NCBI GenBank assembly: GCA_937871785.1
Contig: CALMON010000215.1
Span: 6,551 to 56,910, forward strand
Direction: 5' to 3'
DNA from: an uncultured Granulicella sp.
Lineage (GTDB): Bacteria > Acidobacteriota > Terriglobia > Terriglobales > Acidobacteriaceae
Length of the DNA stretch: 50,360 nt
The translations under genes and the position numbers were made by a program. Below the pieces are notes generated by a model. It made no database searches. It saw nothing but the letters and a program-made list of their open reading frames with translations, and was not told where the DNA came from. Below, piece by piece: positions 8,725 to 35,442 of the stretch. How positions within the stretch are numbered: the stretch's first letter is position 1; the number at the start of each line of letters is the position of its first letter.

Positions 8725-8776
8725 AACTTGCTCCACAGCTCTAAACAGCTCAAAGTATTGGCAGATCGCGCAGGGC

Positions 8777-8799
8777 TCGACCGGGGATAGCGCGGTCGA
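8777..8799 (-). other. Intercistronic hairpin between NHL/Ig gene and TonB receptor gene
   Basis: TCGACCG (8777-8783) and CGGTCGA (8793-8799) form a perfect 7-bp stem with a nine-base loop. There is no T-run on the minus strand, so it is more likely an RNA-processing, stability or attenuation element than a full terminator. Confidence 0.45.
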
Positions 8800-8816
8800 A
8801 CGTGCGCGCCACCCTC

Positions 8817-11800: not shown

Positions 11801-12848
11801 TTACGAGGACCACCCGGTTGTTCACGCGGTCGGCGATGTACAGATTGTTCGCGGCGTCGATCGCGATGTGCTGCGGCGAGTTGAGCAGCGACTGATTGGC
11901 CGCGCCGCCGGCCGCAATCGTAAATCCGGCCGTACCCGTACCGGCGTAGATCGTAATGATCCCCGAAGCGAGGTTGACCACCCGGACATCGTTGAAATTT
12001 CCTTCCGAAATGTACAGGTTGCCCAGCGAATCGAGAGCCAGACCGAACGGCGCCGCCAGGTTGGACGACGTCGCCTGCACCCCGGTGCCGGGGCTGGTGC
12101 CGCTGCCCGCGGTGCCGGTACCCGCCACGATCGTGACCGTGCCGCCCTTGGGGCCGACGCGAACCACCGACGGCGTTCCTCCGGCAACGATCGCGTACAG
12201 GTTGCCGGCCGCGTCGAAGATAATATCCTGCGGCGAGCGGATGGGGCTGCCCGTCGCGGTGCCGCCGGAACTAGCCGCGACTGCTTTGAAGTTGCCGGCG
12301 TAGTCCTCGATCAGGCCGGTTGTTCCGCTCACGCGGCGGACAAGATTGTTGCCGGAGTCCGCGATGTACATATCGCCGGCGAAGAAGCGGACCGCCTTGG
12401 GCGCGTTCAGCGTGGCCTGTTTGGCGGGGCAGCCGTCACCGACCGTGTCGGCGTTCGGGTTCAGCGAAGCAACGGGGTTAGTGCACAGCGTGGCCGGGGT
12501 CGGCTGGCCGGCTACCGTCGTAATCATGCCGGTGACCGCGTCGACGCGCCGGATGACGTTGTTACCGGTGTCGGCGATATATAGATTGCCGAAGGCGTCG
12601 GTGGTGGCGGCGTCCACCGCGGTGCTGATGGAGGCGGCCGTGGCCAGGCCGCCATCGCCCGTGTAGGCCCCGGTTTTGTTACCGGCAATCGTGTTGATCA
12701 CGGACGGAAACGTGACGTTCTGGCCGAAAGCGGCCACCGTGCAGGCGCCAAGAAGGACGGCCAGGGCCGCGGCGCGGCGTGTCGAGCGCAAACGGAGGCG
12801 CGAAAGCGCGGAACCAGGCCGGGTCGAAGACGATGTGTGGAGGTGCAT
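8817..12848 (-). CDS. Giant secreted NHL-repeat/Ig-like protein with acidobacterial C-terminal anchor
   Basis: A 1343-residue secreted protein. A signal peptide (ends near AAFGQ) precedes twelve NHL-type units (for example GNLYIADTGNNVIRRV). They fall into two groups of six, each followed by a HYDIN/ASPM-like beta-sandwich (approximately 11600-11290 and 10250-9940). Two Ig-like segments follow, the second (VVQAFDAFGNSVAGVVVTF) resembling a Big_1 domain. The C terminus has LLPLGMLVFFRKRRK, a hydrophobic stretch and GCGGSS, then a short beta-rich end (GNYNVTVTATSGT). Function is unknown; NHL propellers usually bind proteins or glycans. Two consecutive ATGs exist; the second (12848) is seven bases after AAGGAG and is preferred. 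A near-consensus promoter lies upstream. Confidence 0.8.
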   Translation of the reverse strand: MHLHTSSSTRPGSALSRLRLRSTRRAAALAVLLGACTVAAFGQNVTFPSVINTIAGNKTGAYTGDGGLATAASISTAVDAATTDAFGNLYIADTGNNVIRRVDAVTGMITTVAGQPTPATLCTNPVASLNPNADTVGDGCPAKQATLNAPKAVRFFAGDMYIADSGNNLVRRVSGTTGLIEDYAGNFKAVAASSGGTATGSPIRSPQDIIFDAAGNLYAIVAGGTPSVVRVGPKGGTVTIVAGTGTAGSGTSPGTGVQATSSNLAAPFGLALDSLGNLYISEGNFNDVRVVNLASGIITIYAGTGTAGFTIAAGGAANQSLLNSPQHIAIDAANNLYIADRVNNRVVLVTPAATSASGVPTLSLYSGNGSTTTLGAGDGGLPAAATLSVPYDVELAASGDVLITDAGDKEVRAVSPTGNFGGVPLAVGTSVTQTVLARVTNAITVGSFGVPAGYADFSAAASTNCAAGTAVAAGTLCTIAVTFTPTQGGTRRAPLVFTDSAGLSYSEQLVGIGLAPAAGLLPGKIGTVAGTGTAGNSGDTAAAAAALVNAPASVAVDSLGNTYIADTRNNEVREVIAASGVIVRIAGTGAAGNTGDGAAATAALLNGPAGIAVDGAGNVYIADTGNNRIRLVSVTTGLISAYAGTGTAGFAGDGGLATAAQLTAPSALALTPGGLLLVADSGNNVIRSVGLRSATITTFAGTGSTTFQGDGGPAQIANLSGPLGVAVDNNNVVYIADTGNNRVRQVSFNATTAQASISTLAGGGSAGFNGDGAALSTNFSAPAGLAADAASNIYVADSGNNRIRQISGGQVITAAGSTAQSFTGDGGPATSAALNGPRAVALDGRGNLLIADTANSAIRGINVAAGVLPFPTTNPRATSAPQLVLLENIGNQALNVASVTLPTPFTDSPTGSGTDCTTAALTLTPAANCQISVVFSPPAAGTYAGNIRIADNSQAVTGSAQAIAVSGSSAFVYTATSTLPKTAVAGTGIPFVVSVTNPNALYTGTLHLTSSDKQAVLPANYTFTAADNGTHTFTVQLATAGIQTVTATDTVTTSITTTSSTTVGAGAAARLAAVSGTPQSANILGSFTAPLVVQAFDAFGNSVAGVVVTFTAPAATGASGAFAGQASTTATTGVAGTAASSLLTANAFAGSFTVQATAAGVATPVSFAFTNTVGTGVVQNITISTNPAALTVSPGGSGSVPVSVLPGGGLSAAIQVTCTTSNPVLTCALNPATVSPNASGAPVATTLTVTAATHSSQLFTRSETVFATLLPLGMLVFFRKRRKLAWPALALVLLAALGATSGCGGSSTGLIAGNYNVTVTATSGTVTSSANVLVYVTGYPGNN

Positions 12849-12940
12849 CATGGAGCTCCTTGCAAGCTGAACCGGCACACTCTGGGTCCGGGCGCGCAAT
12901 GGTTTCGCGCGGGACAAACAGGAGATGGGCTAGCAGCGAT

Positions 12941-16247: not shown

Positions 16248-17813
16248 CTACAGCCCGGCGTACCAGTCGTACCCCAGCTTGGTCCAGTAGTCGTCCGGCT
16301 TGTCGTTGGTATACGCAATCAACCCGATCCGCTTGATCTGCTTGTACCCATACTTCAGCGGCGTGTGCAGCCGCAGTGGAGCGCCGTGGAACTGGGTCAG
16401 CGGCTGCCCCATCATCTCCGTCACCAGCAGCGTTTGCGGATGCCGCAGAACGTGGAGGTCGTAGCCGACGTAATAATCGCCATCGGGCGTTTCCATGTAC
16501 ACGTACTTCGGTTCCTTGCCGTCGATCAACTCCGGCGGATAGGCGTCCAGAAAATCCGACATCCGGATGCCCGCCCAATGCACAATCTGGCTCCAGCCTT
16601 CAATACACTTGAACTGCGTCACCAGCTCATGCCGCGGAAACTTTGTGATGTCCGGCATCTCCAGCAGCAGCCCCGGCGTGCCGGCGCGCAGCGTCGAGTC
16701 GCTTTCACCGGCTTCCTCCATGCCGCGCGGCTTGCGGCCGAGATGGTCGTCGTCCTCATCGTCGCCATGTTTCCTGGAGTCGTCGCCCTGCTTGGACTGG
16801 TCGTTCTTGGCCTGGTCCTGCATTTTGGCGGGAGCCATCTTTTGCGACGTGTCGCTCGCATCGCTCTTGTCGTTGTTGTCGCCCTGGCCCTGCGCCGGGT
16901 TCCTGCCCGGAGCGGGCGGCGCGGCTTTGCCCGGAGCGGTCGCGGGAGCTTTGCCGGGAGTCGCTCCTTTGGAGGCGTGTCCGGCGTTCGGTGGAGCCTG
17001 GCCCTTTGCCGGTGGCGGAGCCGGAGCCGCGCCCGGTGCCGGAGACCCGCCAGCCGGAGGAGCTCCCCCCGGAGCTGCCCCGTCCGGATGCGCTTCCTTG
17101 CTGGGGTCGAGCTTGGTATTGTGGCCGGGGTCTTCGTTGTCCTTCTTGTCGGAATACTCGTAGTTCCAGGCCGTCACGTCCTTCACGTACAAGGGGCTTG
17201 CTTTGTCGTTGCGCACGCCGACCATCTGCAGCCGGTAGGTCGCCGGCACCAGGGCCTTGCCCAGGCCGTACATCCCGTTGACGCGCAGCGTTTCCGCACG
17301 GCTTAACGGGTAGGTCGGCGCAAGCGCGTGCTCGCGGAACACTTCTTTCGAGCCCTTGGCGTTGAACAGAAAAGCGTCGCGCAGCAGGTTGGGCTGCGTT
17401 TCGTCTTCAGGGCTCAGATTCAGGTACGCGTAAAACCCGCCGATCGCCGCCGCGGCCACGCCGCCAACCAGGAACGAACGCCGTGTGTGCCGGTGCGCTT
17501 CAGCTAGAACGGCCGCGTCGGCCGGGTTGCCGTCGTTTTTCGCCCCGGCTTCGGCCTGCGCGGCGGTCTTGTGCTCGGGCATGGGCCCCCGTTTTTCAGC
17601 CTCACCCTTGTCTTCGTCCTTCGCCTCGGGTTTGCCGTCCGCCTCAGGTTTCTTCTCGTCCGCCGAAGTCGCCTGATCGGACGCCGCGAGAGCCTCGTCC
17701 TGCGTTTTCTGCGCGATCTCTTGCAAATGACCCGGGATGGGCCGCTCGGGGTTGTGTGGAAGCGGCTCGGGCGCGTTTCCTGTGGTTTCGGGCTGCTTTG
17801 TCTCGTCGCTCAT
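16248..17813 (-). CDS. Tat-exported molybdopterin-dependent oxidoreductase (sulfite oxidase/MsrP fold) with disordered insert
   Basis: A 521-residue protein. Residues 1-108 are a charged, low-complexity cytoplasmic segment; HTRRSFLVGG (twin Arg 111-112) and a hydrophobic stretch follow, a Tat signal or anchor. The rest matches the sulfite-oxidase/YedY molybdopterin fold: an N-terminal part to about residue 220, then FKCIEGWS with the probable molybdenum-ligand Cys403, and QFHGAPLRL near the end. Between these lies an insert of some 155 residues (about 221-375), rich in Pro, Ala and Gly and then in Asp, Lys and Gln. Family members are normally around 300 residues. The ATG overlaps the stop of the upstream cytochrome b gene (ATGA), implying a two-subunit enzyme receiving or giving electrons through that cytochrome. 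The substrate is unknown. Confidence 0.82.
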   Translation of the reverse strand: MSDETKQPETTGNAPEPLPHNPERPIPGHLQEIAQKTQDEALAASDQATSADEKKPEADGKPEAKDEDKGEAEKRGPMPEHKTAAQAEAGAKNDGNPADAAVLAEAHRHTRRSFLVGGVAAAAIGGFYAYLNLSPEDETQPNLLRDAFLFNAKGSKEVFREHALAPTYPLSRAETLRVNGMYGLGKALVPATYRLQMVGVRNDKASPLYVKDVTAWNYEYSDKKDNEDPGHNTKLDPSKEAHPDGAAPGGAPPAGGSPAPGAAPAPPPAKGQAPPNAGHASKGATPGKAPATAPGKAAPPAPGRNPAQGQGDNNDKSDASDTSQKMAPAKMQDQAKNDQSKQGDDSRKHGDDEDDDHLGRKPRGMEEAGESDSTLRAGTPGLLLEMPDITKFPRHELVTQFKCIEGWSQIVHWAGIRMSDFLDAYPPELIDGKEPKYVYMETPDGDYYVGYDLHVLRHPQTLLVTEMMGQPLTQFHGAPLRLHTPLKYGYKQIKRIGLIAYTNDKPDDYWTKLGYDWYAGL

Positions 17814-18634
17814 CGCCAGCTCTTTCTTTCCGCGTCAAGCGATACCGCATCGACGCCCTGAATGTCTTCTCCGCTCACCATCGACCGGAAGTTGCTCCAA
17901 CCCGCCGCGATCACCTGGTAGACGTGGATTAAAAAGAATCCCATAAAGCTCATCGTCGTCCAGAAGTGGAGCCACCGCGCCATTTCATACCCGCCGCACA
18001 GCGTGGTCAGCAAGTGCAGTTGCGTCGGCTTCCAGATGGCGAAGCCGGTAAGCACCATCATCACGCCCATCAGCGCGCAGGAGGTGTAGGCGATGCGCTG
18101 GCCGCCGTTGTACTTGGTTTGCGGCGGCAGGCCCTTGCGCAGCCGGAGGTCCACCAGAGTGACCTGAATGGCGTCGCGGAGGCTCGACTTGAGCGGAATC
18201 ACGAACCGCCACTCCCCCGAAAACGCGGTGTACGCCACCCAGGCAAGGCCGTTCACGATAAACACCCACATAAAGAACGAGTGATACCCCAGTCCCTGCG
18301 TGACGTGGTACGGCACATGAAACAGGTTGTAAAACCAATTCGGGAACAAGCGAAGAAGCGTGAACCTGCCAAGCCCGATGCGGTACACGCGGTGCGGGTA
18401 ATTGTAGGCGTTATCGGAGTCGTTCCAATAGATCAGCAGGCCGCTCCACACCATCGTGAACAATACCGGAAAGTTGACCCAATGCATCCAGCGAATGGCC
18501 AGGGGGTGCTTTTCGTCGATCCGGATGGTCGCCTGCGGCTCGGCTTTTTCAGGCGCGGGGGCGGCATCGGGCCTGTCACCGGCCGCAAGCGGCAGGGGAT
18601 TGGCGGGGTTGAGATTGAGGCTGGCATCTGCCAT
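17810..18634 (-). CDS. Membrane cytochrome b subunit (cytochrome b/b6, thiosulfate reductase-like)
   Basis: A 274-residue integral membrane protein with about four to five helices and several conserved His residues suited to b-haem ligation (RWMHWVNF, HVPYHVTQGLGYHSFF, RWLHFWTTMSFMGFFLIHVYQV). It should link the quinone pool to the molybdopterin subunit encoded immediately downstream, whose ATG overlaps its stop. The first 45 residues are Pro/Ala-rich and probably cytoplasmic. The start at 18634 is chosen because AAGGA lies nine bases upstream; longer in-frame starts lack this. It resembles Ni/Fe-hydrogenase and thiosulfate-reductase cytochromes rather than the MsrQ type, so the pair should not be called MsrPQ. 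Confidence 0.82.
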   Translation of the reverse strand: MADASLNLNPANPLPLAAGDRPDAAPAPEKAEPQATIRIDEKHPLAIRWMHWVNFPVLFTMVWSGLLIYWNDSDNAYNYPHRVYRIGLGRFTLLRLFPNWFYNLFHVPYHVTQGLGYHSFFMWVFIVNGLAWVAYTAFSGEWRFVIPLKSSLRDAIQVTLVDLRLRKGLPPQTKYNGGQRIAYTSCALMGVMMVLTGFAIWKPTQLHLLTTLCGGYEMARWLHFWTTMSFMGFFLIHVYQVIAAGWSNFRSMVSGEDIQGVDAVSLDAERKSWR

Positions 18635-18790
18635 AAGTGAGAATCCTTTGCGAGTCTCCCGGGGGTGGCCTGGGAGCGGTGGTCGTCCAAAAATGGTGTG
18701 CCGCAGTGCGTGGAACTGAAGGTGCACTGCTCCCTGCAAACTGCCAAACTCAACGAACACTAACCCTGCATGCCACGTCGTGCGCTTTCG

Positions 18791-20507: not shown

Positions 20508-20972
20508 TTACCGGTCGTTGAAGGAACCCGCGCCCCACATGGCGGTGGCTCCCCACATCGCGGTGGCGCCCCACATCGCCGTGGCTGCTTCGGTGGTGCC
20601 GGCTCCCCACATCGCGGTGCTGGCCTGCGTCGTGCCCGCACCCCACATCGCGGTGCTGGCCTGCGTCGTGCCCGCACCCCACATGGCGGTCGCCCCCCAC
20701 ATGGCGGTGAAGGCCGCGGGGTCGCTTGCGCCCCACATCGCGGTGGCGCCCCACATCGCCGTGAACGCGCTCGGTGTGTTTGCTCCCCACATAGCCGTCG
20801 CGCCCCACATGGCCGTCGCGCCCCACATCGCCGTGTTGGCCGCCGGAGTGGAAGCTCCCCACTTCGCGGTCGCGCCCCACATTGCGGTCTGGCTGGCTAC
20901 CTGGCCGGTAAAGGCGCTTTGCCCGTAGACGCTGCCGGCGCCCCACATGGCAGTCGCGCCCCACATCGCCGT
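20508..20972 (-). repeat. TAMWGA coding repeat in the S8 protease tail
   Basis: Sixteen copies of the six-residue unit TAMWGA (one is TAKWGA) occur between codon 544 and the end of the protease gene. They stand singly or in runs of two or three, separated by six-residue spacers such as STPAAN, NTPSAF, SDPAAF, GTTQAS and GTTEAA. At the DNA level the 36-bp unit 20605-20640 is repeated exactly at 20641-20676, evidence of recent tandem duplication. Confidence 0.95.
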
Positions 20973-22601
20973 TTTGCCGGTCACGAGGAAGACGTTGTTG
21001 GTCGTCGTGTCGTACACGGCGGTGGGCGAAAGCGCGTACCCGGCGGGGAACGGCTTGGTGTCGGTAGTCGCATCCTTTACGGCCGCGTTGATGTCGAGGT
21101 AGCCCGCGCCGATGGTGAACACATCGCTGTGCGCCGTGTACACGATGCCGGTCACAGGGTCGGTCGTCAGGGACGTTTGCGGCAGAACGCTGTGGTTCGC
21201 GTCGCGCATCAGGTACGCCTTTACCGCGTCCGGCGTGAGCGACGGGTTGGCCGACAGCAGCAGAGCCACCGCACCGCTGGTTACGCCGGTCGCCATGCTC
21301 GTTCCGCTCAGCGGCATGTAATCGTTCGACGCCTGCGTGCTGGTCGTGTTCATATAAAAGGACTTCGGCGTCCAGAACTGCGGGTCGTTCTGCGAAATGT
21401 ACGAGTTGTTCAGCAGGTTGCTGATGACCAGGTTGCCCGGTGCGACGAGGTCCGGCTTGGCCGTCTGGTCGAGAAACGTAGGCCCTTTGGAGCTGTAGGT
21501 TGCCATCTGGTCGTCGGCATTCGACGCTGTGCCGTTGGTGCGCACGGCCCCGACGGTGATCACGTACGGGTCGTTGCCGGGAGCTTCAATGGTGCCGTAG
21601 CCTTCGGAATTCAGCGCCTGGTTACGGCCCTCGTTGCCGGCGGCGACGACTACGGTAATGCCAGCCTTCCACGCCTTTTCCACTTCCTGGCAAAGGGGGT
21701 CGAGCGTGTAGCTTTCCCACACCGGCCGCCCCAGCGACAGGTTGATGATTTTGATGTTGTAGATGTCCTTAAGGGCGATGGCGGTTTCGATGGCGGCGAT
21801 CGTTTGCGAATCCGTGCCTGCGCCCGTGTGGTCCAGCACGCGGAGGTTGATCAGGTTCGCGTTGGGCGCGATGCCAAAAAAGGTGCGCGTGTACTTGGGG
21901 TCACCCGACGACTCCGTGCCGTTACCGGCGATCAGCCCGGCGATGTGCGTGCCGTGGCCGTAGCGGTCCTGGCCATCGGTGCCGTAGTCGTTGGGTACGA
22001 AGTTCTGGTTGTACACGATGCGGCTGCCACCGGTCAGGAGCGCCCACCACGGTGAGGTGGCCGGCGTCCCGTCAGGCAGGCCGAGAGCCTTGTACGTGGC
22101 TGGCGTGGCGACGCCGAAATCCTTGCGGAAGGTGATGCCGCTGTCGATCACGGCGATGCCGATGCCGGTGCCGATGTTGCCGGTGGACCACACCGCGGGC
22201 GCGTTGATCGGCTCGGCGGTATATTCGGGCGCCTTCGCAATCGACGGCACCACGTCATGCGCCTTCAAGGGGCGGTCAAGCGACACGTATTTTACGCCGG
22301 GCTCGTTGGCCAGACCTTCGAGCTCCGACTTCGGCATGGTGACCGCGAGCGCATGGATGTGGTGCAAATGCGCCGACATCGCCCCGCCGTGGCGCGCGAT
22401 CGCGCTGTGCTCGGCATCGCCGGGCTGGTCCTCATACTGCACGATCACTGAAACGGTATCGTCCGAAGACATTTTGGCGTCGCGCGAAATCTTGGCGTTT
22501 CCCGGTGCCGTGGAGGCAGTCGTGGAAGGGGCTTGCGCCGAAGCGACGGAAACTGAGGCAAACAGGGCAGAAAGAGCCAGAGCCGAACGGAACGAAGGCA
22601 T
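20508..22601 (-). CDS. Secreted subtilisin-like (S8) serine protease with Trp-Gly repeat tail
   Basis: A 697-residue exported protease. A signal peptide (residues 1-23, ending VASA) and a probable inhibitor-I9-like propeptide precede the S8 domain, in which the triad can be read: Asp153 (AVIDSG), His219 (GHGTHIAG) and Ser435 (SGTSMATG). The oxyanion Asn is in AAGNEG. After the catalytic domain, residues 544-697 consist almost wholly of TAMWGA units with short spacers. S8 proteases of Acidobacteria and some other soil bacteria are known to me to carry similar W-G repeats, but their role is not established. Start: GGAG lies seven bases before the ATG at 22601; an upstream in-frame GTG (22649) has no such site. 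A terminator follows the gene. Confidence 0.92.
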   Translation of the reverse strand: MPSFRSALALSALFASVSVASAQAPSTTASTAPGNAKISRDAKMSSDDTVSVIVQYEDQPGDAEHSAIARHGGAMSAHLHHIHALAVTMPKSELEGLANEPGVKYVSLDRPLKAHDVVPSIAKAPEYTAEPINAPAVWSTGNIGTGIGIAVIDSGITFRKDFGVATPATYKALGLPDGTPATSPWWALLTGGSRIVYNQNFVPNDYGTDGQDRYGHGTHIAGLIAGNGTESSGDPKYTRTFFGIAPNANLINLRVLDHTGAGTDSQTIAAIETAIALKDIYNIKIINLSLGRPVWESYTLDPLCQEVEKAWKAGITVVVAAGNEGRNQALNSEGYGTIEAPGNDPYVITVGAVRTNGTASNADDQMATYSSKGPTFLDQTAKPDLVAPGNLVISNLLNNSYISQNDPQFWTPKSFYMNTTSTQASNDYMPLSGTSMATGVTSGAVALLLSANPSLTPDAVKAYLMRDANHSVLPQTSLTTDPVTGIVYTAHSDVFTIGAGYLDINAAVKDATTDTKPFPAGYALSPTAVYDTTTNNVFLVTGKTAMWGATAMWGAGSVYGQSAFTGQVASQTAMWGATAKWGASTPAANTAMWGATAMWGATAMWGANTPSAFTAMWGATAMWGASDPAAFTAMWGATAMWGAGTTQASTAMWGAGTTQASTAMWGAGTTEAATAMWGATAMWGATAMWGAGSFNDR

Positions 22602-22788
22602 GAGAAAACTCCAGAAACGGAAGTGATGCAAGGGGAAAGCTTTTGACACGATCGGACGGCGCCATAGCCAGGAGCTTTGAAACGTAACAGCGATACAGAC
22701 GACGGATACGTTCTAAAGCAGGTGGAGGCCCGAAGTGTTACAGTCCCAAAAAAGACGCCGTGCAAACTTTGAACGAGGTAGGTTTACA

Positions 22789-22829: not shown

Positions 22830-24974
22830 CTAAGTGGGATCCGCCGCAACGGGGGTGGTACGCGCGTCAACCGAGGGCGCAGCGTGGCGAACGACCCTCT
22901 GCTGCGGTTGAGCCGCGCGAGGCGAGGCAGAAGACGCGGCGGAGGCGCGAGCGTCGGCCGGCAGCGCACGCAAAACCAGCACCTCCTCCGGCCCGACGTC
23001 TACCTGTAACGCGCCACTTGCGGCGGCAAGGGGCGCCGCCGGCAACTTCCTGCTGGAGCTGAGCACCGCGGCGAACCGCGTGCAGCCGGCAAGCGCATTG
23101 CCCGTCAGCGGCAGCCTAAGCGTCCGCGCGGATTTCGCTTCGTTCGCGAGCACAATGTATCGGTCGGCGTCGGCGTTTCCCGCCGAATCACTGCCACAGC
23201 CCCGGCTGCCCTCGTCCGTGGTGCGCACGAACGCGATGGCCGTTGCGTCGCCAAACAGCTCCTGCTGCAAGCCGGTCTGCAGCGCCGGCGCGTGCAGACG
23301 GAACTGCATGGCCTGCCGCACCCAGTCGTGGAGCTCGCGCGCGTCACCCGTGCGGCCACTCGCATGGAATGCATTACCGCCGGCCAGCCCCGCGACGCCG
23401 GCAAACTCGCCGGGCATGTCCTTGCGGTTGTCCGGGTCCTCGCCTCCCGTCATGCCGAGCTCGTCGCCGTAATACATCTGCGGCGTGCCGCGAAGGGTCG
23501 TCAGCAGGCCGTAGGCCATCTTCAGCCGCGCAACGTTCATGCCCGGTGCGGATAAAAACCGCGTCGTGTCATGGTTGCCGAAGAACGTCACCAGCCGCTC
23601 CGGATGCGGGTACAGCGCGTCGGCCCGCAGGGTGTCGAACAGCGCGCTCAGCGGCTTCGTGCTGCTTGCCGGGCTGGTACCGCTCGCCACGGTCGTCACG
23701 TTGGCCAGCGTAGACCGCAACGTGCCGAACACGGGAAAGTCGAATGGCGTATAGAGCATCGTGTCGAACGTGCCGTCGCCGCCCACGTTGGCGCGGCCGC
23801 CGGCAAAGAAGCTGGTCACCGCGGGGTCGGTGTCGAACACCTCGCCTACCTCCGTGACGTGCGGGAAGAGCTGCTTCAGCTCGCCGTCATACGCCTGCCA
23901 GAAACTGCGATTGACGTAGGCGTAGGTGTCTATGCGCAGGCCGTCGGCCCCGGTCTGCTCCAGCCACCACTCGGCGTTTTGCCGCAGGTACTTGGCGACG
24001 GCCGGGCTGTCGGTGTTCATGTCCGGCAGCGCGTCGGCAAACCAGCCGGTCAGGGTGCCGACGCGGTCGTGCTCGGAAGAATGTGGGTCCACCAGCGCAT
24101 GGAAGTTGTATTCGGACGCGGGATGGTGTGCCAGCGTACCGTGAAACCAGTCCGGGGCGGGCTCATCCCGCACCCAGGGGTGGTTCGGCCCCACGTGGTT
24201 CGGCACGGTGTCCAAAACCAGCTTCATGCCGCGCGCGTGGAGCTTCGCGGCCAGCGCCTGGAGGTCCGCGAGCGTGCCGTAGTGCTCATCGACGGCGTAG
24301 TAATCCGTGCAATGGTAGCCGTGGTAAGCCTCCGCGCCATGGTTCTGGTAGACGGGCGTCGTCCACACGGTGGTGGCGCCGAGATCCTGCAGGTAATCGA
24401 GATGCTCGGCGACGCCGCGCAGGTCGCCGCCATGCCACCCGCGCACCTTGGCGCGCTCGGCCGCGGCTTCAGGGCTCGCGGCAGAGCTTTTGCCCAGCGG
24501 GCCGTCGTTGCTCAGGTCGCCGTCCGCAAAGCGGTCGGTGACGATCAGGTAGATCACGTCCTTGCCGCTGAATCCGGCGAGCCCGGCCTGTACGCCATTC
24601 GCGGCTCGCGGCGCGGCAAAGGTGTACGGCACCTCCAGCCGGTCGGCGCCGCGCGTCACGCGAAGCTGCACGGTTTCCGCCGTCGCCGGTGCGCCGCCAA
24701 GCCACACCTGCGCCCAGTGGCCGTTTTCCGAAATAACCGTGCGCTCCACCGTGAGCGCCGCATCACTCAACGCAAACGTCGTCCCGCCAAGCCCTTCGCC
24801 GTTGACGAGCAGCATCGGCTTGGGCAGCGTCGCATACCAGTTCGGCGGATCGACCTTGATGATCTTGAGCGCCGGGGCCGTTTGAGCCAGACAAACCGCT
24901 CCGTGGAGACAGGTCGCGAAGAGCGCAAACGCCGTGGAGGCGCGGGCAGCACGCAGCAAGGGGAAACCATTCAT
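22830..24974 (-). CDS. Secreted GH13 alpha-amylase family enzyme (cyclomaltodextrinase/neopullulanase-like)
   Basis: A 714-residue exported alpha-glucan hydrolase. After the signal peptide (about residues 1-31) a beta-sandwich of the cyclomaltodextrinase N-terminal type (KVDPPNWYATLPKPMLLVNG) precedes the GH13 barrel. The conserved regions are visible: LVLDTVPNHV; GLRIDTYAY with nucleophile Asp349; EVGEVF with acid/base Glu378; FFGNHDTTRF with Asp469. It should cut maltodextrins or cyclodextrins in the periplasm or at the cell surface. The last 40 residues are a low-complexity Ala/Ser/Pro tail. The ATG at 24974 has AGGA six bases upstream. It lies 96 bp behind a TonB receptor gene, with a strong terminator between them that would limit read-through. 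Neopullulanase and alpha-amylase remain alternatives. Confidence 0.88.
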   Translation of the reverse strand: MNGFPLLRAARASTAFALFATCLHGAVCLAQTAPALKIIKVDPPNWYATLPKPMLLVNGEGLGGTTFALSDAALTVERTVISENGHWAQVWLGGAPATAETVQLRVTRGADRLEVPYTFAAPRAANGVQAGLAGFSGKDVIYLIVTDRFADGDLSNDGPLGKSSAASPEAAAERAKVRGWHGGDLRGVAEHLDYLQDLGATTVWTTPVYQNHGAEAYHGYHCTDYYAVDEHYGTLADLQALAAKLHARGMKLVLDTVPNHVGPNHPWVRDEPAPDWFHGTLAHHPASEYNFHALVDPHSSEHDRVGTLTGWFADALPDMNTDSPAVAKYLRQNAEWWLEQTGADGLRIDTYAYVNRSFWQAYDGELKQLFPHVTEVGEVFDTDPAVTSFFAGGRANVGGDGTFDTMLYTPFDFPVFGTLRSTLANVTTVASGTSPASSTKPLSALFDTLRADALYPHPERLVTFFGNHDTTRFLSAPGMNVARLKMAYGLLTTLRGTPQMYYGDELGMTGGEDPDNRKDMPGEFAGVAGLAGGNAFHASGRTGDARELHDWVRQAMQFRLHAPALQTGLQQELFGDATAIAFVRTTDEGSRGCGSDSAGNADADRYIVLANEAKSARTLRLPLTGNALAGCTRFAAVLSSSRKLPAAPLAAASGALQVDVGPEEVLVLRALPADARASAASSASPRAAQPQQRVVRHAAPSVDARTTPVAADPT

Positions 24975-25015
24975 CAGAGTCCTATGTAAGAAACATCGTG
25001 GAGAAACCCTACGGC

Positions 25016-25055
25016 GAAAAAGAAAGCGGTACTGCAAACGAGCCGCAGTACCGCT
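25016..25055 (-). terminator. Strong rho-independent terminator after the maltodextrin-locus TonB receptor
   Basis: AGCGGTACTGC (25025-25035) and GCAGTACCGCT (25045-25055) form a perfect 11-bp stem with a nine-base loop. On the minus strand it is followed by TTTCTTTTT (to about 25016). It sits between the receptor stop and the GH13 start, so the GH13 gene either depends on read-through or has its own promoter. Confidence 0.85.
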
Positions 25056-25070
25056 GAGAAGATACCAGGC

Positions 25071-28000
25071 TTAGAAGTTGACGCGAGCCGCGAACTCCAT
25101 CTGCCGTTGCGACAACGTGCGGACACCGCTGATCGTTCCGAATGTCCCTCCCGGGCCGGTGGTATACGTCCCGTTGGCGTTGGCGACGCCGTTGTTGATG
25201 TCGCCGTCGGGGTTAGTGAATTCCGGCGTGTTCAGCACGTTGTAGGCCTGCGCGCGGAGTTGCAGCTTCACCCGTTCGGTAATGGTGAAATCCTTGAACA
25301 CACCTACATCTTCCGATGTGAAGCCGGGGCCGAAGAACTGGTTGCGCTCCACATTTCCCGCACGCTGATAGACGTTGGTGCTGGTACCCACCGTAGCTGT
25401 CGGGGGCGCGCGAAACACGCCGCTAAAGTAGGTGCGGTTGTTGGCGTTGCTCGTGCCGCCAAGCAGAGCACGAGGTACAGGGGTGTACGAGATCACATCC
25501 GCACGGTTGTCGATGTTGCCGATACCGCTGGTGTTGATGTCGAAGGGCGTGCCGCCCTGCACTGTGGTCAACGAATTGATTTGCCAGCCGCCCAGGATTT
25601 CGTTCAGCAGGACGGGCGAGCTGCCGCCGAACCGCTGTCCGTGACCGTAGGGCAGGTTATAGACCAGCGAGCCGACGAAGACGTTTCTCTGGTCCTGGTC
25701 GGAGTTGCCGTAGTTCAGCCGGAACTGCGGTTGTCCGTTAGCGATAAAGAAGCGTCCGCCACCACCGTTGGCACCCGTCGAAAACGCGCCGTTCGAGTTA
25801 TCGAGCGTGTGCGAGAACGTATACGCTCCCGTCACCAGCAGGTTGTTGCCGACATTCCGGTTTACCGAAACCTGCAGGCCGCTGTAGTGGCCCGTTCCTT
25901 CAGCCGAGTTGTAGGTGATCGTCTGCCGGTTGGCATAGGTCATGGCACCGCTGCCAAGTTGCTGGGCGTTCAGGTTGAAGTAGGTGGCGAGGTGGTCGCT
26001 CTTGTTGCCCACATAGGCAATCGTGAGGGACGTAAAGCGGTCGAATTGCTGCTGCACCTGCAGGTCGTACTGCTGGACGGAGCTGTTCTGGTTATTGGGG
26101 TTCGCTCCGATCACGTTCGAACTCGCCAGCAGCGCCGGGGTAACAGCTGCCGCGCCGAAGACCGGCAAAGGCAAAGCCTGGGTAGCAGCAACTGCGTTGT
26201 TGTTGTTCGACCCCGGTGTGTTTTGACCGGTAAAGGTGATCCGGTAGCCGTTGGCGGCCGTGTACGCCTGCACGCCGTTGAAGCCGGGGTTGTTTGAGAA
26301 CTGGTTGCCCACGCCGCCGCGGTCCAGGAAGTAGAAGATGCCGTAGCCGCCGCGCAGCGACGTCTTTCCGTCGCCAAACACGTCGTACGCAAAGCCCACG
26401 CGAGGAGCGATGTTGTTAGTGTCCGTGTTTACGAGCGAGCGGGACGCTCCGTTGACGCCGGCAAACACAAGCTGCTGGGTGGTGGGGTTGTAGTTCGCCT
26501 GGTTGTTGTTCTGCTCATACGGGTAGGTGAACAGATCGTACCGGACACCCAGATTGAGCGTCAGGCGATGATTGACCTTCCAGTCGTCCTGCAGGTAGTA
26601 GCCGGTTTCGTAGTTGAAGGTTTGAAAGTAGGTGCTGGCTGCGCCCACTTCGTAGTCGGAGAAACCGGCGAGGATTTCCGAGGTTTCGTAGCCGGTGAAG
26701 CGTCCTGTGCCGGGGTAATTGGTGCCGCCCAGAATGAAGTATCCCTTGGCATCGTTGCCCTGGAAGAAGTCGACTTCGCGGCGAATGATGTTGGCCCCCG
26801 CCTTGAACGTATGCGGCCCGTGCGAGTACGTGACGTTGTCGGCGAACTGGTAGGTCTTCTCAGGCACTGAATACGGCCCGCCGTCACCGGTGTATTCAAT
26901 CTGGTTGTTGCTTCCGCCAATCAGCGCGCCGCCGCCCAGAAGCGAGTTGCGGTTCGCATTCACGATGCCCAGGTTGGCGGAAACGGGAGTGCCTTCAAAC
27001 GGGTTGACGTAGGCAAATTGCGGACGGACGTAGGCGAAGCGGAACTCGTTGACGATGTTCGGGGTGAAGGTGCGGGTGTAGCCGCCGACCGCCGCGCGAG
27101 GATGGTTGACCGTCGCGCCGGAGGCGAAACCGGCCGGCAGCGCCGTGAACAGGCTGTTGATCGCCTGCGTGTCCTGCCCGTAGCTGTAGCGGACGAAGAG
27201 CTGGTCTTTCTGCGAAAGCCGGTAGTCCAGGCGCACGTTGAAGTCGTTGTAGTTCGAGATATTGCGGCGCACGGCGTAGAAGTTCTGGGTGATGCCGGCG
27301 CGGGTAGGGGCGTCGAAGGCGTTCAGGTACTTGATGCCGGCGGCGTTCTGGCGCGCGGTCGGGATGATGTTGGCCGCGGCCGTTCCCCGGCCGAACTGCT
27401 GGCAGGTGGTCGGGTCGTAAATTCCGCCGGTCACCACAACGGTGTTGGTGCAGCCGGTTTCGCTGGTGAACTGGCTCGGATTCGAGGTGGTGGCGGTGCC
27501 GAGCAGCTCGGTAAAGTTACCCTGCCGCATCAGCGTGGTAGGCACGTTGTGGAACCCGGCATCCTGCGGCTGGCTCTGGCGCAGGGCCTGGTAGTCGCCG
27601 AAAATGAAGAGCTTGTCCTTGATGAGGGGCCCACCCGCCGCGAAGCCGAGCTGCTTGCGCTGGAACGGCGTTGCGGGCAGGCTCGGGTTGAAGTAGTTGC
27701 CGTTCGCTCCACCCAGCCCGGCACTGCGGTAGTACGCAAACAGCGTGCCGTGAATCTGGTTGGTGCCCGAGCGGATCGATGTATTGACGATCGCGCCGCC
27801 CGCCCGGCCAAACTCCGCCGGAGCCACCGCCGTGGTTACGCGGAACTCTTCAATCGAGTCCGGCGACGGAAAGATGACGATGGTGTTCACCAGCGACTCG
27901 TTGTTATCGGTGCCATCCAGCAGGAAGTTGTTCGATTGCGCCCGCAGGCCGTTCACCGTCAACGAGCCGCCGCCACCCGTGCTGTAGCGCAGGGTTTCGG

Positions 28001-28571
28001 CATTGCCGTTGACGCCCGAAGCATCCGAGCCATACGCTCCGCGAGTGACGCCCGGGGTCAAGGTGGCAAGCTGCAGGAAGTTGCGCTGCCCTAGCGGCAG
28101 GTCGACCACCTGCCGGCCCTGGATCACCTCGCCGGTCGACGATGTGGACAGGTCCACGATCGGCGCGGCGTCGGTGACTTCCACGGTTTGCGCGGCCGAG
28201 CCGGCGGACAGCTTGAACTCCACCGTCTGCACCTGCTGGATCTGCAGCTCAAAGCTCTGCGACTGTCCGGCAAAGCCCTGCATTGAGGCGTCGACCTTGT
28301 ATCGCCCGCGCGTCAGGGCGGGGAAGGTAAAGTCGCCGCCGCTGCCGGAAGTCCGGGTTAGGAGGGCGTTGGTATCCGTGTTGGTCAGCGTCACGGTCGC
28401 GCCGGGGATAAACGCTCCAGTGTTGTCGGCCACCGTTCCGGTCACCCGACCTGTATCGGATTGCGCGTGCAGCGCCGTCCACGATCCTGTCGCCGCGCTC
28501 ACGACGCAGCAGGCCATCGCCATCCGTAGTAGCGGTGTGCCCAGCAGGTTCAATCTAAAGTTGGTTTGCAT
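25071..28571 (-). CDS. Oar-like TonB-dependent receptor, probable maltodextrin/alpha-glucan receptor
   Basis: An outer-membrane receptor of 1166 residues: signal peptide (about 1-36, ending LHA), carboxypeptidase-regulatory-like domain (about 40-125, GTVADNTGAFIPGATVTLTN), plug with LPLGQRNFLQLATLTPGVTRG, then a long barrel ending in FAARVNF with terminal Phe. It belongs to the same architecture as the receptor at 5281-8724, but the two sequences clearly differ. The substrate is inferred only from neighbours: a GH13 enzyme downstream, and divergently a membrane regulator, a GH31 alpha-glucosidase and a sugar permease. The ATG at 28571 has GGAGG ten bases upstream; a longer frame to 28610 exists. 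The 247-bp divergent region upstream should hold its promoter; a TTGACA at 28662-28657 has no good -10 partner. Confidence 0.86.
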   Translation of the reverse strand: MQTNFRLNLLGTPLLRMAMACCVVSAATGSWTALHAQSDTGRVTGTVADNTGAFIPGATVTLTNTDTNALLTRTSGSGGDFTFPALTRGRYKVDASMQGFAGQSQSFELQIQQVQTVEFKLSAGSAAQTVEVTDAAPIVDLSTSSTGEVIQGRQVVDLPLGQRNFLQLATLTPGVTRGAYGSDASGVNGNAETLRYSTGGGGSLTVNGLRAQSNNFLLDGTDNNESLVNTIVIFPSPDSIEEFRVTTAVAPAEFGRAGGAIVNTSIRSGTNQIHGTLFAYYRSAGLGGANGNYFNPSLPATPFQRKQLGFAAGGPLIKDKLFIFGDYQALRQSQPQDAGFHNVPTTLMRQGNFTELLGTATTSNPSQFTSETGCTNTVVVTGGIYDPTTCQQFGRGTAAANIIPTARQNAAGIKYLNAFDAPTRAGITQNFYAVRRNISNYNDFNVRLDYRLSQKDQLFVRYSYGQDTQAINSLFTALPAGFASGATVNHPRAAVGGYTRTFTPNIVNEFRFAYVRPQFAYVNPFEGTPVSANLGIVNANRNSLLGGGALIGGSNNQIEYTGDGGPYSVPEKTYQFADNVTYSHGPHTFKAGANIIRREVDFFQGNDAKGYFILGGTNYPGTGRFTGYETSEILAGFSDYEVGAASTYFQTFNYETGYYLQDDWKVNHRLTLNLGVRYDLFTYPYEQNNNQANYNPTTQQLVFAGVNGASRSLVNTDTNNIAPRVGFAYDVFGDGKTSLRGGYGIFYFLDRGGVGNQFSNNPGFNGVQAYTAANGYRITFTGQNTPGSNNNNAVAATQALPLPVFGAAAVTPALLASSNVIGANPNNQNSSVQQYDLQVQQQFDRFTSLTIAYVGNKSDHLATYFNLNAQQLGSGAMTYANRQTITYNSAEGTGHYSGLQVSVNRNVGNNLLVTGAYTFSHTLDNSNGAFSTGANGGGGRFFIANGQPQFRLNYGNSDQDQRNVFVGSLVYNLPYGHGQRFGGSSPVLLNEILGGWQINSLTTVQGGTPFDINTSGIGNIDNRADVISYTPVPRALLGGTSNANNRTYFSGVFRAPPTATVGTSTNVYQRAGNVERNQFFGPGFTSEDVGVFKDFTITERVKLQLRAQAYNVLNTPEFTNPDGDINNGVANANGTYTTGPGGTFGTISGVRTLSQRQMEFAARVNF

Positions 28572-28818
28572 TTCCTTTGTGCCTCCACAATGCCGTTCGG
28601 CATCCAACACCCTGGTTGAAGTGGCGCCCCAGGGGTGTGCGTTCGACGTCGCCCACTGTCAAAGACTTGCCCAGGTCACTGCAACCGATTCGACTTCGTT
28701 TCTGTTTCGTTTTTCCATCGTCTGTTAAGTCGAACGCGGACAACAGTTACAGCCGAAGTGCACCGCCCTTTCCTACCCCGCTACGGCGGTGGTAGAGTCG
28801 TTCTGCGAGTTTTCTTCT

Positions 28819-31149
28819 ATGCCGAGCACCACCAGCAACCCGGCCAACGCAAGAGTCGCCTTCGGGCTCTACGAGGTGGACCTCACCTCCGGTGAGCTTT
28901 GGAAAGCCGGCTATCGGGTGAAGCTGCAAAGCCAGCCCTTCAAGGTGCTGGTCGCGCTGCTGGAGCGCCCCGGACAGGTCGTCACGCGCGAAGAACTGCA
29001 GTTACGCTTGTGGGGCAAGGATACCGTTGTCGACTTCGACCACTCGCTGGGCACCGCCATCAACAAGATTCGCGAAGCGCTCGGCGACTCAGCCGAGAAT
29101 CCACGTTTCGTCGAAACCCTTTCGCGCCGCGGCTACCGCTTTATCGCTCCCGTAAGCCGGGCGGAGTCGGACGAGCCCGCCCCTAGCCGGCTGAAGCCGT
29201 CGATCGAGATTACCCCAGCGCCGTCCTCGGTTCCGGTCCGGCAAGCCGAAGCTGTGGCGACGGAGACCGCCCTGTCGCCGGCAGCGGCTGAAACGGTCGC
29301 GTCTTTTTCCACAGCGGCAGCCCCGGCTTCACCGTCTCTGGTCGCCGTGCGGGCGGAAGCCGCGCCGCCGGAAAGATTTCCGCCCACTCCTTATATAGAG
29401 TTGTCGCAAAATACCGGCATGCGGGGCCGCGGAGCCTCGCTTGTATGGACCGCGCTTGCCGTGTGCCTCGTCGCGCTTGCAGGCCTTGGCGGCTATCTTT
29501 TACATTCCAAACGCTTTCCGTCCGCTCCGCCGCACATCAGTAAGCTGACCCGCACCGGGCATCTGGCGCCAAGCAGCAACAACATGGAGAATCTCGCCGC
29601 CAGCGCTACGGACGGCGTCCACCTGTTTTCTCCAGTGATCGAAAACGGCCATTCCAACATCGCCGCGATCGCCCTTGCCGGGGGCATGGCCGTGCCGCTC
29701 AACATCCCGGCGGAAATTGCCAGTCCCGCGCTTGGCGATATTTCGCCGGACGGCTCGCGCCTGCTGGTCCGCGAGCATCTTTCGCCCGAAAGCGAGCAGC
29801 CGCTCTGGGTGGTGCCGACCCTGGGCGGCTCCGCACAGCGGGTAGGTGGCGCCCTGGCGCATGAGGCCACCTGGATGCCGGACGGCGAAAGCATCCTGTA
29901 TGCTACCGGCAACGACCTGTATGTTACTCATTTGACTGGAAACAATCCGCAACTGTACGCTTCGCTGCCGGGCCGCGCCTTTTGGATGCGCTGGGAGCCG
30001 AACGGCAAACTGCTGCGGTTCAGCATCATCGACCCCGTCGCGCATACGCTGACGCTTTGGCAGCTTTCCCCCGGAGACCGCCGCGCCATCCCCGTTCTGC
30101 CCGGGTTTACGACGCCGCAGTCCGAGTGCTGCGGCGTGTGGACCGCCGATGGCAGCGCCTTTATCTTTCAATCCTCGCACGGCGGCTCGATCGACCTGTG
30201 GAAGCTGCAGGGCGAGTCCACCAGCAGCCCCGTCCGCATCACCGACGGTCCGCTGCAGTTCGAGGCGCCCGTCGCCGCGCGCACCGGAAATCGCGTTTAT
30301 TTTCTCGGTGTGGACGCCCGTTCCGAGCTGCAGCGGGTGACTGCCTACGGTCTGATCCCGGAGAAAAGCTTTATCGCCCCGGCCGTGCGCATCGACTACA
30401 CGCGCGACGGCAAATGGGTGGCCTGGACCGACGACGCCGGCGGACTTTGGCGCGCGCGCACCAATGGCACCGAGCAGCTCCAACTCACTCCCGGGGCGCT
30501 CGACGTCTTTTTGGCGCATTGGTCGCCCGACGGCTCCCGCCTGGCGCTGATGGCGCGCGAGCCGGGGAAAGCGTGGAACATCTACATGATCGGGGCCAAC
30601 GGCAACGATCTGCAGCCCGTGCTGAAAGAGCCGCGCAACTTCGCCGATCCTTCCTGGTCGCCCGACGGACAATCGCTGGTATTTGGCCGGGTGGACGACA
30701 TGATGGGCAAGGAGTCCGACACGCGTACCCTGCAGGTGCTCAACCTGCGCACCGGCCAGATTACCGCTGTGCCGGGCTCGGACAACCTGTTCAGTCCGCG
30801 TTGGTCTCCGGATGGCCGCTACATCGCCGCGCTTTCGCTCGATCAGCGTCACGTCCGCGTGCTCGACCTGACGCAGCACGTCTGGTCGACCCTCGCCGTT
30901 CCTTCAGGGGCCGACCCGGTGTGGAGCTCAGACAGCCGTTTCCTGTACCTGCATGCGTCGCTCGACCCAGCGCAGCCGATTGACCGCGTCTCGATAGCGG
31001 ACGGCAAGGTGCAGGAAGTGGTGCGTCTCGCCGACTCGGTGGGCAACGACGCCGTGGATTACATCTTCGTTGGCCTGACTCCAGACAACGTTCCCTTGAT
31101 CCGCTCGCGGGTATTTACCGGAAATATGTATTCGACCTTGATCAAGTAA
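28819..31149 (+). CDS. Membrane-bound winged-helix regulator with TolB-like beta-propeller
   Basis: A 776-residue protein. Residues about 14-111 form an OmpR/PhoB-type winged helix (KVLVALLERPGQVVTREEL, NPRFVETLSRRGYRFIAPV). A Pro/Ala linker follows, one transmembrane helix (about 207-227), then a large beta-propeller with TolB/WD-like units (SPDGSRLLV, SPDGSRLALMA, SPDGQSLVFGR, SPDGRYIAALS). This CadC-like topology places the DNA-binding domain inside and the propeller outside, so it could sense a periplasmic signal and act directly on DNA; such proteins are abundant in Acidobacteria and mostly uncharacterised. It is divergent from the TonB receptor and upstream of the GH31 and MFS genes, so it is the likely regulator of this locus. 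The ATG at 28819 lacks a clear ribosome site; an upstream GTG (28789) is possible. Confidence 0.85.
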   Translation: MPSTTSNPANARVAFGLYEVDLTSGELWKAGYRVKLQSQPFKVLVALLERPGQVVTREELQLRLWGKDTVVDFDHSLGTAINKIREALGDSAENPRFVETLSRRGYRFIAPVSRAESDEPAPSRLKPSIEITPAPSSVPVRQAEAVATETALSPAAAETVASFSTAAAPASPSLVAVRAEAAPPERFPPTPYIELSQNTGMRGRGASLVWTALAVCLVALAGLGGYLLHSKRFPSAPPHISKLTRTGHLAPSSNNMENLAASATDGVHLFSPVIENGHSNIAAIALAGGMAVPLNIPAEIASPALGDISPDGSRLLVREHLSPESEQPLWVVPTLGGSAQRVGGALAHEATWMPDGESILYATGNDLYVTHLTGNNPQLYASLPGRAFWMRWEPNGKLLRFSIIDPVAHTLTLWQLSPGDRRAIPVLPGFTTPQSECCGVWTADGSAFIFQSSHGGSIDLWKLQGESTSSPVRITDGPLQFEAPVAARTGNRVYFLGVDARSELQRVTAYGLIPEKSFIAPAVRIDYTRDGKWVAWTDDAGGLWRARTNGTEQLQLTPGALDVFLAHWSPDGSRLALMAREPGKAWNIYMIGANGNDLQPVLKEPRNFADPSWSPDGQSLVFGRVDDMMGKESDTRTLQVLNLRTGQITAVPGSDNLFSPRWSPDGRYIAALSLDQRHVRVLDLTQHVWSTLAVPSGADPVWSSDSRFLYLHASLDPAQPIDRVSIADGKVQEVVRLADSVGNDAVDYIFVGLTPDNVPLIRSRVFTGNMYSTLIK

Positions 31150-31318
31150 CACCGGGCCCTTTGCCGTTCTTCGAGCGCTCGCGAGCAGCACCCGGCTCCG
31201 GAAGACATCTTCCTGAAAGTCCCTCATTCGTAAGCCGTTAGTAGAAGAGCAACAAAAGGATGAAGGAAGACCGGAGAGCCGTTGCACCAAGTCCCAAACC
31301 TCGGGCTTACTATGCGAT

Positions 31319-33913: not shown

Positions 33914-33918
33914 TCCCT

Positions 33919-35238: not shown

Positions 35239-35380
35239 CGCAGGCCCCGAGGCTGCCTGGAGCAGATTTCGTATCGTTATAGCAGATTCGTACGGCTATT
35301 CAGGGTGCCGAGTCTCAGCGCCCGAAGCCGCGGGCGTTCACCCCATTCTGATGTCTGGACTGAAGCCCGGACCTATCCAG

Positions 35381-35414
35381 AAGCAGGAACGATCAGGAAG
35401 CAGGAACGATCAGG
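35381..35414. repeat. 17-bp tandem direct repeat
   Basis: AAGCAGGAACGATCAGG occurs twice back to back (35381-35397 and 35398-35414) in the 204-bp gap between the permease and the small anchor-protein gene. No gene or terminator is evident in the gap. Confidence 0.8.
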
Positions 35415-35442
35415 ACTGCACCTCGTCGTGGACATCTGAAAA

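Follow-up and report, generated by a model that had tools for sequence, protein, structure and literature searches.

The window, by which we mean the whole stretch of 50,360 nucleotides that was analysed, carries a gene for an S8 subtilase that ends in a tail of tryptophan-glycine (WG) hexads (Table 1). The protein matched the Peptidase_S8 profile with 176.4 bits against a curated cut-off of 21.8, and the catalytic motifs follow in order (DSG at 169, HGTH at 232 and GTSMA at 449). Judged by the profile match and these three motifs, the gene is an S8 subtilase with a complete catalytic domain, in agreement with the earlier note. Its best-matching solved chain by sequence was 3afg (E = 5.9e-37). 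As read by eye, Met17 (at 22601) is a likelier start than the GTG, and the signal-like N-terminal segment suggests that the protease is probably secreted.

Table 1. Features of the tailed protease gene and its upstream neighbours, in window positions
Feature	Position	Strand	Remarks
S8 subtilase gene with WG-hexad tail	20508..22649	-	713 aa from GTG; stop codon 20508-20510
Probable Sec signal peptide, residues 17-39	22533..22601	-	read by eye
Putative N-terminal propeptide region	22173..22532	-	suggested by position; no Pfam match
Peptidase_S8 catalytic domain, residues 160-485	21195..22172	-	PF00082, E = 1e-51
Linker between catalytic domain and tail, with GAGYLDI...A[LM]SP-type region	20973..21194	-	region shared by many relatives
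Tail, last 154 aa: 16 xAxWGA hexads and spacers	20511..20972	-	15 TAMWGA, 1 TAKWGA
Irregular 16-residue segment GSVYGQSAFTGQVASQ after unit 2	20889..20936	-	contains GSVYG
Exact 36-bp tandem duplication (TAMWGA+GTTQAS)	20605..20676	-	copies 20605-20640 and 20641-20676
Alpha-amylase-like gene, upstream, co-directional	22830..25037	-	context
Outer-membrane protein, OMP_b-brl_4 and CarboxypepD_reg	25071..28610	-	33 nt before the amylase-like gene

The earlier note had described sixteen TAMWGA-type units in the tail and an exact 36-bp duplication, and both descriptions held when the units were counted and the copies compared. Besides the hexads, the tail has six spacers of six residues each within the array, a segment of 16 residues, and six closing residues (GSFNDR). 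Identity at an offset of 36 extends over 44 positions (20605-20648), and TRF detected the tail array with periods of 18, 36, 54, 72 and 90. The tail has 16 WG dipeptides, compared to a maximum of 8 in 10,000 shuffles of its 154 residues, and 14 WG dipeptides have a partner 6 or 12 residues further on (maximum of 2 in the same 10,000 shuffles). Fifteen of the 16 units are identical short peptides, and no dibasic sites were seen in the spacers.

Upstream, the amylase-like gene is possibly on the same transcript as the protease gene. It lies in a carbohydrate-use neighbourhood (22830-35238) with the outer-membrane protein, a PD40-repeat winged-helix regulator, a GH31 gene and an MFS transporter. 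The window encodes two large OMP_b-brl_4 proteins with CarboxypepD_reg domains (5281-8994 and 25071-28610), a 1366-aa protein with NHL repeats and ASH-like domains (8817-12917), and a molybdopterin oxidoreductase of the MsrP/sulfite-oxidase type that adjoins a cytochrome b561 gene (16248-18760); a perfect 17-bp tandem repeat of 2.1 copies lies at 35380-35415.

Next, we looked at the tail across relatives. Related W-G repeats, which the earlier note had mentioned for acidobacterial subtilases, were found on S8 relatives of the same phylum. The sampled loci gave 135 distinct S8 frames, and 131 of these were tailed when at least three W[GS] were required there (80 of 84 frames from S8-seeded loci and 51 of 51 from tail-seeded loci). 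The four tail-less frames were pieces (three run off their stretch, and one is the 5' part of an interrupted frame), and no complete tail-less relative was present among the 135 sampled frames. Linker and tail were found together in the relatives. In an S8 tree, the window protein groups with L015 (G202; 65% identity over 360 columns), within a set of six that also holds L014, L017, L018 and L136. Separately, in one tailed protease of a single-contig genome, we observed a frame change inside the repeats (L117, around 2936-3300).

The hexads have a shared composition. Over 1177 hexads, in which W-G was the search key, position 1 was S, N or T in about 80%, position 2 was A, V or I in 86%, position 3 was V, L, I or M in 95%, and position 6 was D, S, T or N in 76%. 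The number of units per tail ranged from 5 to 32 with a median of 9 (127 tails, with at least five units required), and 702 of the 1053 WG intervals in these tails were exactly 6 residues long, 879 being multiples of 6. Lag identity was 0.467, 0.453 and 0.410 at lags 6, 12 and 18, respectively, and lag analysis over the 127 tails gave no preference for a 12- or 18-residue coil. The array sits at or near the C terminus: at most 20 residues followed the last unit in 107 of 126 closed frames, with a maximum of 77. Many arrays among the relatives have no spacers. Within the window's clade, all 16 rows matched the spacer pattern [SNED][DT]Pxxx, with all matches of L017 being its own TPLWGT-type units and hence no true spacer, and 14 of 16 rows had an S-x-[VL]-Y-[GA] element, of which the window's form is GSVYG. 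The consensus unit was TALWG[A/K/R] in 11 of the 16 rows.

We then compared the units with each other at the DNA level. Among the 16 window units, 13 are distinct as DNA, and the proportions of synonymous and amino-acid-changing differences were 0.624 (pS) and 0.0089 (pN). Apart from the 36-bp duplication, the window units are old as judged from these synonymous differences, with pS read as near saturation. The earlier note had proposed active copy-number change; one recent exact duplication agrees with that, but the age of the other units does not. The medians over 126 tailed genes were 0.609 for pS and 0.15 for pN (irregular units included), and pS exceeded 0.4 in 98 of the 126 and fell below 0.2 in two. 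All 11 units of L136 are TALWGA, yet they are 11 distinct DNA units. With many synonymous and few amino-acid differences among units, it follows that many of the arrays are old, with their protein sequence maintained.

Furthermore, units resembled each other more closely inside one protein than across nearest relatives. The mismatch at positions 1, 2, 3 and 6 was 0.283 within a protein versus 0.456 between nearest relatives (112 query rows, mutual pairs counted twice), an excess in likeness of 0.173, whereas none of 100 shuffles exceeded 0.0085. For close pairs, the values were 0.392 within and 0.409 between at 75-85% S8 identity and 0.350 within and 0.404 between at 85-100%. Because the difference is small for close pairs, the process behind this likeness is not a fast one. 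Mismatch also grew with the distance between units (0.205 at distance 1 and 0.33 at distance 11), and sister proteins can differ in all of their units (13 of 13 TIIWGD in L103 versus 12 of 12 QIIWGD in L114). Any account of the tail must explain why units are more alike within one protein than among relatives.

We looked into whether the tail occurs outside S8 proteases. Among 52 stretches retrieved solely for the tail, 46 had it on an S8 frame and six did not. L092 and L127 are contig-end fragments, L106 and L128 are poor matches in low-complexity or stop-ridden frames, and L101 is a broken gene with an S8-like VAIIDSG motif upstream and no S8 profile match. In L120, a 225-aa frame (734-1408) has four WG units after an integrase-like stretch, as read by eye, and has no Pfam match; it is either a real non-S8 carrier or a rearrangement and is the one plausible non-S8 case among the 52 stretches. 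From the other direction, 86 open reading frames (ORFs) had repeated W[GSAN] hexads and 78 of them matched S8 at an E value below 1e-5. We read the remaining eight as five antisense frames, the contig-end fragment L092, the frame-changed piece L117 and L122, a stretch with an unknown base. These results indicate that, within the sample, the tail is nearly restricted to this S8 subfamily.

In the libraries searched, the tail itself matched no described domain. Neither a Pfam family (E up to 10) nor a model or chain in NCBIfam and PDB, sorting-tail models included, matched the window tail; a DUF963 match of the L042 tail (22.7 bits against a cut-off of 21) was read as composition. The earlier note had proposed looking for MWG-repeat tails on other secreted proteins of this genome, and the protease gene gave the one protein match. 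With one mismatch allowed, the DNA pattern had eight matches in the protease gene of this genome, and three single matches elsewhere look like chance. A search with the whole protein (E up to 0.001) matched 81 of 249 genomes of the order; we counted 69 of the 81 as tailed-type (best E of 2.2e-98 or better) and the 12 weaker ones as general S8 proteases. A 30-column profile of the repeat alone matched 42 of 396 genomes of the phylum, and within the window's genus there was a match in G024 and none in 18 other genomes listed. A strict-pattern scan of contigs gave five loci, all with acidobacterial titles; we do not claim restriction to the Acidobacteriota. A DNA pattern of four consecutive-type WG hexads, run against viral contigs, returned at least 120 stretches, and in the 120 listed no four-WG-hexad frame of more than 60 aa matched the S8 profile; as a separate observation, one viral ORF (L203, 13902-14354) holds an array of NAxVxG hexads, some of them NAQVWG, with another residue order. 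On plasmids, tblastn with the whole protein returned 500 records, all below 60% identity and none covering 80% of the query, and repeat queries returned 2 and 13 records, all below 60% identity.

The gene neighbourhoods of the relatives revealed a recurring arrangement, which the earlier note, made from the window alone, could not see. The tailed protease very probably belongs to a conserved module together with a MASE9-HD-GYP-GAF(-GGDEF) membrane protein and a Dpp/Opp-type importer (Pfam names BPD_transp_1 twice, SBP_bac_5, ABC_tran and HD_5/GAF/GGDEF). We inspected 20 larger regions, 13 from the window's clade and 7 picked for earlier hints of a link, and found the order regulator-DppB-DppC-SBP-ATPase-S8 on one strand in 15 of them. 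L299 has the first five module genes and stops before the S8 gene, which follows in L132. The remaining regions are rearranged (L304 and L307), partial (L305) or lack the module (L311). The GGDEF part was not detected in L303, L315 and L317. In L023 (G238:C72), one of two clade members outside the 20, the binding-protein gene lies 1,072 nt away; in the other, L134 (G147:C8), as in the clade member L311, no importer genes turned up.

The link to signalling genes extended beyond these regions. A signalling ORF (MASE9-HD-GYP-GAF-GGDEF-like or sigma-54-linked-like) lay at most 700 nt from 70 of 130 tailed genes, some of the matches covering the sigma-54 part of the L116 query only; the ORF was on the same strand in 41 of 42 downstream cases and divergent in 32 of 35 upstream cases. 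Across 26 genomes, most of them chosen for the protease, there were 30 MASE9 matches in 18 genomes, and 18 of the 30 were no more than about 2 kb from a tailed protease match when positions were compared by hand. Each of 12 genomes had between 1 and 11 HD_5 matches. More distant families gave a mixed picture. In L334-L336 (family code f26), where the association recurs, the protease is flanked by MASE9-HD and sigma-54 ORFs to one side and by SBP/Dpp genes to the other. Signalling genes of the MASE9 and sigma-54 kinds are nearby in L338-L341, and a sigma-54 ORF lies about 3 kb away in L345. The distant stretches L333, L337 and L342-L344 had no module; in L337 and L342-L344 there was at most a single GGDEF or ATPase match at a greater distance.

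We also evaluated whether protease and importer occur together across genomes, counting a binding protein as operon-type at an E value of 3.4e-120 or better (the next group starts at 9.9e-102). Binding protein and tailed protease agreed in 242 of 249 genomes (65 with both and 177 with neither), and the discordant genomes were 4 with the protease only and 3 with the binding protein only (Fisher test, P value = 5.8e-51, which ignores shared ancestry and uses thresholds set after the lists were seen). At least 51 of 68 SBP genes were within 12 kb of a tailed protease match and at least 36 of 68 within 3 kb. In G223 (L326) and G142 (L327), the regulator-importer operon is present and no tailed protease was found; thus the importer can do without the protease. 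G134 has a 3.2-kb contig with the binding protein, the ATPase and then directly MASE9-HD. Where the protease occurs without the binding protein, a MASE9 or MASE9-HD gene adjoins it in G118, G247 and G234, and no MASE9 gene was shown beside it in G229.

In the window's own genome, the arrangement differs. No module gene was found in the 50,360-nt window, and the window protease is not beside an importer. Its assembly comprises 269 contigs at 83% completeness. On contig C90, a MASE9-HD-GAF-GGDEF gene is followed by DppB close to the end of the contig. Contig C24 has DppC, a binding protein (58% to its G024 counterpart) and the ATPase; we infer that C90 and C24 together represent one operon. No S8 start was recognised in the 712 bases after the C24 ATPase, and tblastx against the window gene was unconvincing there. 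The window's genome thus seems to keep the module, with the protease located elsewhere. Among the five relatives in the window's set of the S8 tree, L018 (stretch L311) alone has its protease outside the operon.

As far as our searches go, this is an S8 protease with a previously undescribed tail in an undescribed module; among the papers listed in searches of the open-licence literature, none concerned a WG-hexad tail or a protease-importer-regulator module. Since the complete close relatives that we compared are tailed and the gene is often near the importer and the c-di-GMP-type protein, the tail looks like a conserved working part. The simplest reading is that the protease feeds the importer, because the protease gene rides with a peptide importer. 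Our best overall explanation, to which we give roughly an even chance, is a scavenging subtilase in an importer module, with the hexad tail as a folded domain for retention or binding. The exported subtilase would digest protein outside the cytoplasm, in a presumed scavenging role, and the Dpp/Opp-type importer (two permeases, an SBP_bac_5 binding protein and one ATPase) would take up the released peptides, inward transport being the presumed direction. The hexads, of the form [S/N/T]-[A/V/I]-[V/L/I/M]-W-G-x, may fold as one solenoid-like domain, each giving a short strand with a turn at G-x. The tail would hold the enzyme to its substrate or to the surface of the cell, and the importer could then reach the released peptides. 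Several results speak against this explanation: no family or PDB chain matched the window tail in support of a solenoid, the lag analysis gave no coil preference, the window protease is apart from the importer, G223 and G142 have the regulator-importer operon and no tailed protease was found in them, and no importer or module genes were seen in L311, L134 and several distant stretches. The beta-helix, the adhesive or wall-binding surface and the export or anchoring signal that the earlier note had suggested are likewise candidate readings, for which the family and PDB searches of the window tail gave no match. Retention or substrate binding as the task of the tail is our first choice, though a tentative one that falls a little short of an even chance; sorting or folding in cis come next, and a peptide signal is the boldest reading.

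The tail could instead be a C-terminal signal for export, sorting or assembly by an envelope machine, perhaps removed afterwards, which we consider unlikely. Its position at or near the C terminus and its presence nearly always on S8 proteases in the sample are consistent with such a signal, but other cargo would then be expected, and L120 alone is a plausible non-S8 carrier among the tail-seeded stretches. In addition, no second clear match to the DNA pattern turned up in the window's genome, 5 to 32 units is wide for a signal, and no sorting-tail model matched the window tail. Similarly improbable in our view is an autochaperone or stability domain that acts in cis on the catalytic domain. 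In its favour, the sample has no complete tail-less relative, and linker and tail go together; a docking domain should have a fixed shape, however, and the range of 5 to 32 units is more in keeping with an extended array.

The boldest alternative, and in our judgement quite a remote one, is that the hexads are a self-carried, multi-copy peptide signal, freed by the protein's own subtilase domain or by another protease. The Dpp/Opp-type transporter would re-import the hexads, and the MASE9/HD-GYP/GGDEF protein would read them to give a c-di-GMP response. Kexin and other S8 subtilases process pheromone precursors made of repeats, and the greater likeness of units within a protein than between relatives, though synonymous sites differ widely, points the same way, as do the linked peptide importer and signalling protein. 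Against it, units change slowly in the window's clade, and W and G recur throughout; no dibasic sites were seen in the window spacers, many arrays lack spacers, and the conserved layout looks structural. Moreover, neighbouring units are the most alike, which a ladder or local duplication also gives, and the excess in likeness is small for close pairs. Finally, a neutral low-complexity expansion by slippage, which the earlier note had named as the alternative, would account for the exact 36-bp duplication, the variable unit numbers, the frame change in L117 and the broken gene of L101, but it is contradicted by the high pS and low pN of the window units and of the 126 genes and by the tails kept in 131 of 135 frames, and we practically discard it.

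We compared the protease, its tail and the module with known systems. The window protease shares the complete catalytic domain and the Asp-His-Ser motifs with S8 subtilases (PF00082); its WG-hexad tail is an addition for which the PDB search gave no matching chain. The consensus of left-handed beta-helix hexapeptide repeats, in which three hexads (18 residues) make a triangular coil, is [LIV]-[GAED]-x2-[STAV]-x; the tail shares the period of 6, and, written as W-G-x-x-[A/V/I]-x, its glycine and its small or branched residue fall at the corresponding positions, whereas it differs in having Trp for the aliphatic residue and a position 3 that is also hydrophobic, and no 18-residue superperiod was seen in the sequences of the 127 tails. 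As in yeast alpha-factor-type precursors, there are identical short units with spacers, here linked to a subtilase and a peptide importer; in contrast, the units are fused to the protease, no processing sites were seen, and change within the clade is slow. Like Opp/Dpp importers, the module operon has two permeases, a binding protein and an ATPase, but one ATPase was seen, and a MASE9-HD-GYP protein and a tailed S8 protease are co-encoded.

The repeat tail thereby becomes part of a recurring, testable gene module of protease, peptide importer and c-di-GMP-type protein. If the peptide-signal reading were true, a single protein would be both protease and pheromone precursor in a signalling circuit of Gram-negative bacteria from soil. 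Acidobacteriota are abundant in soils, and the module may bear on how they get nitrogen from protein, or on whether they signal with peptides.
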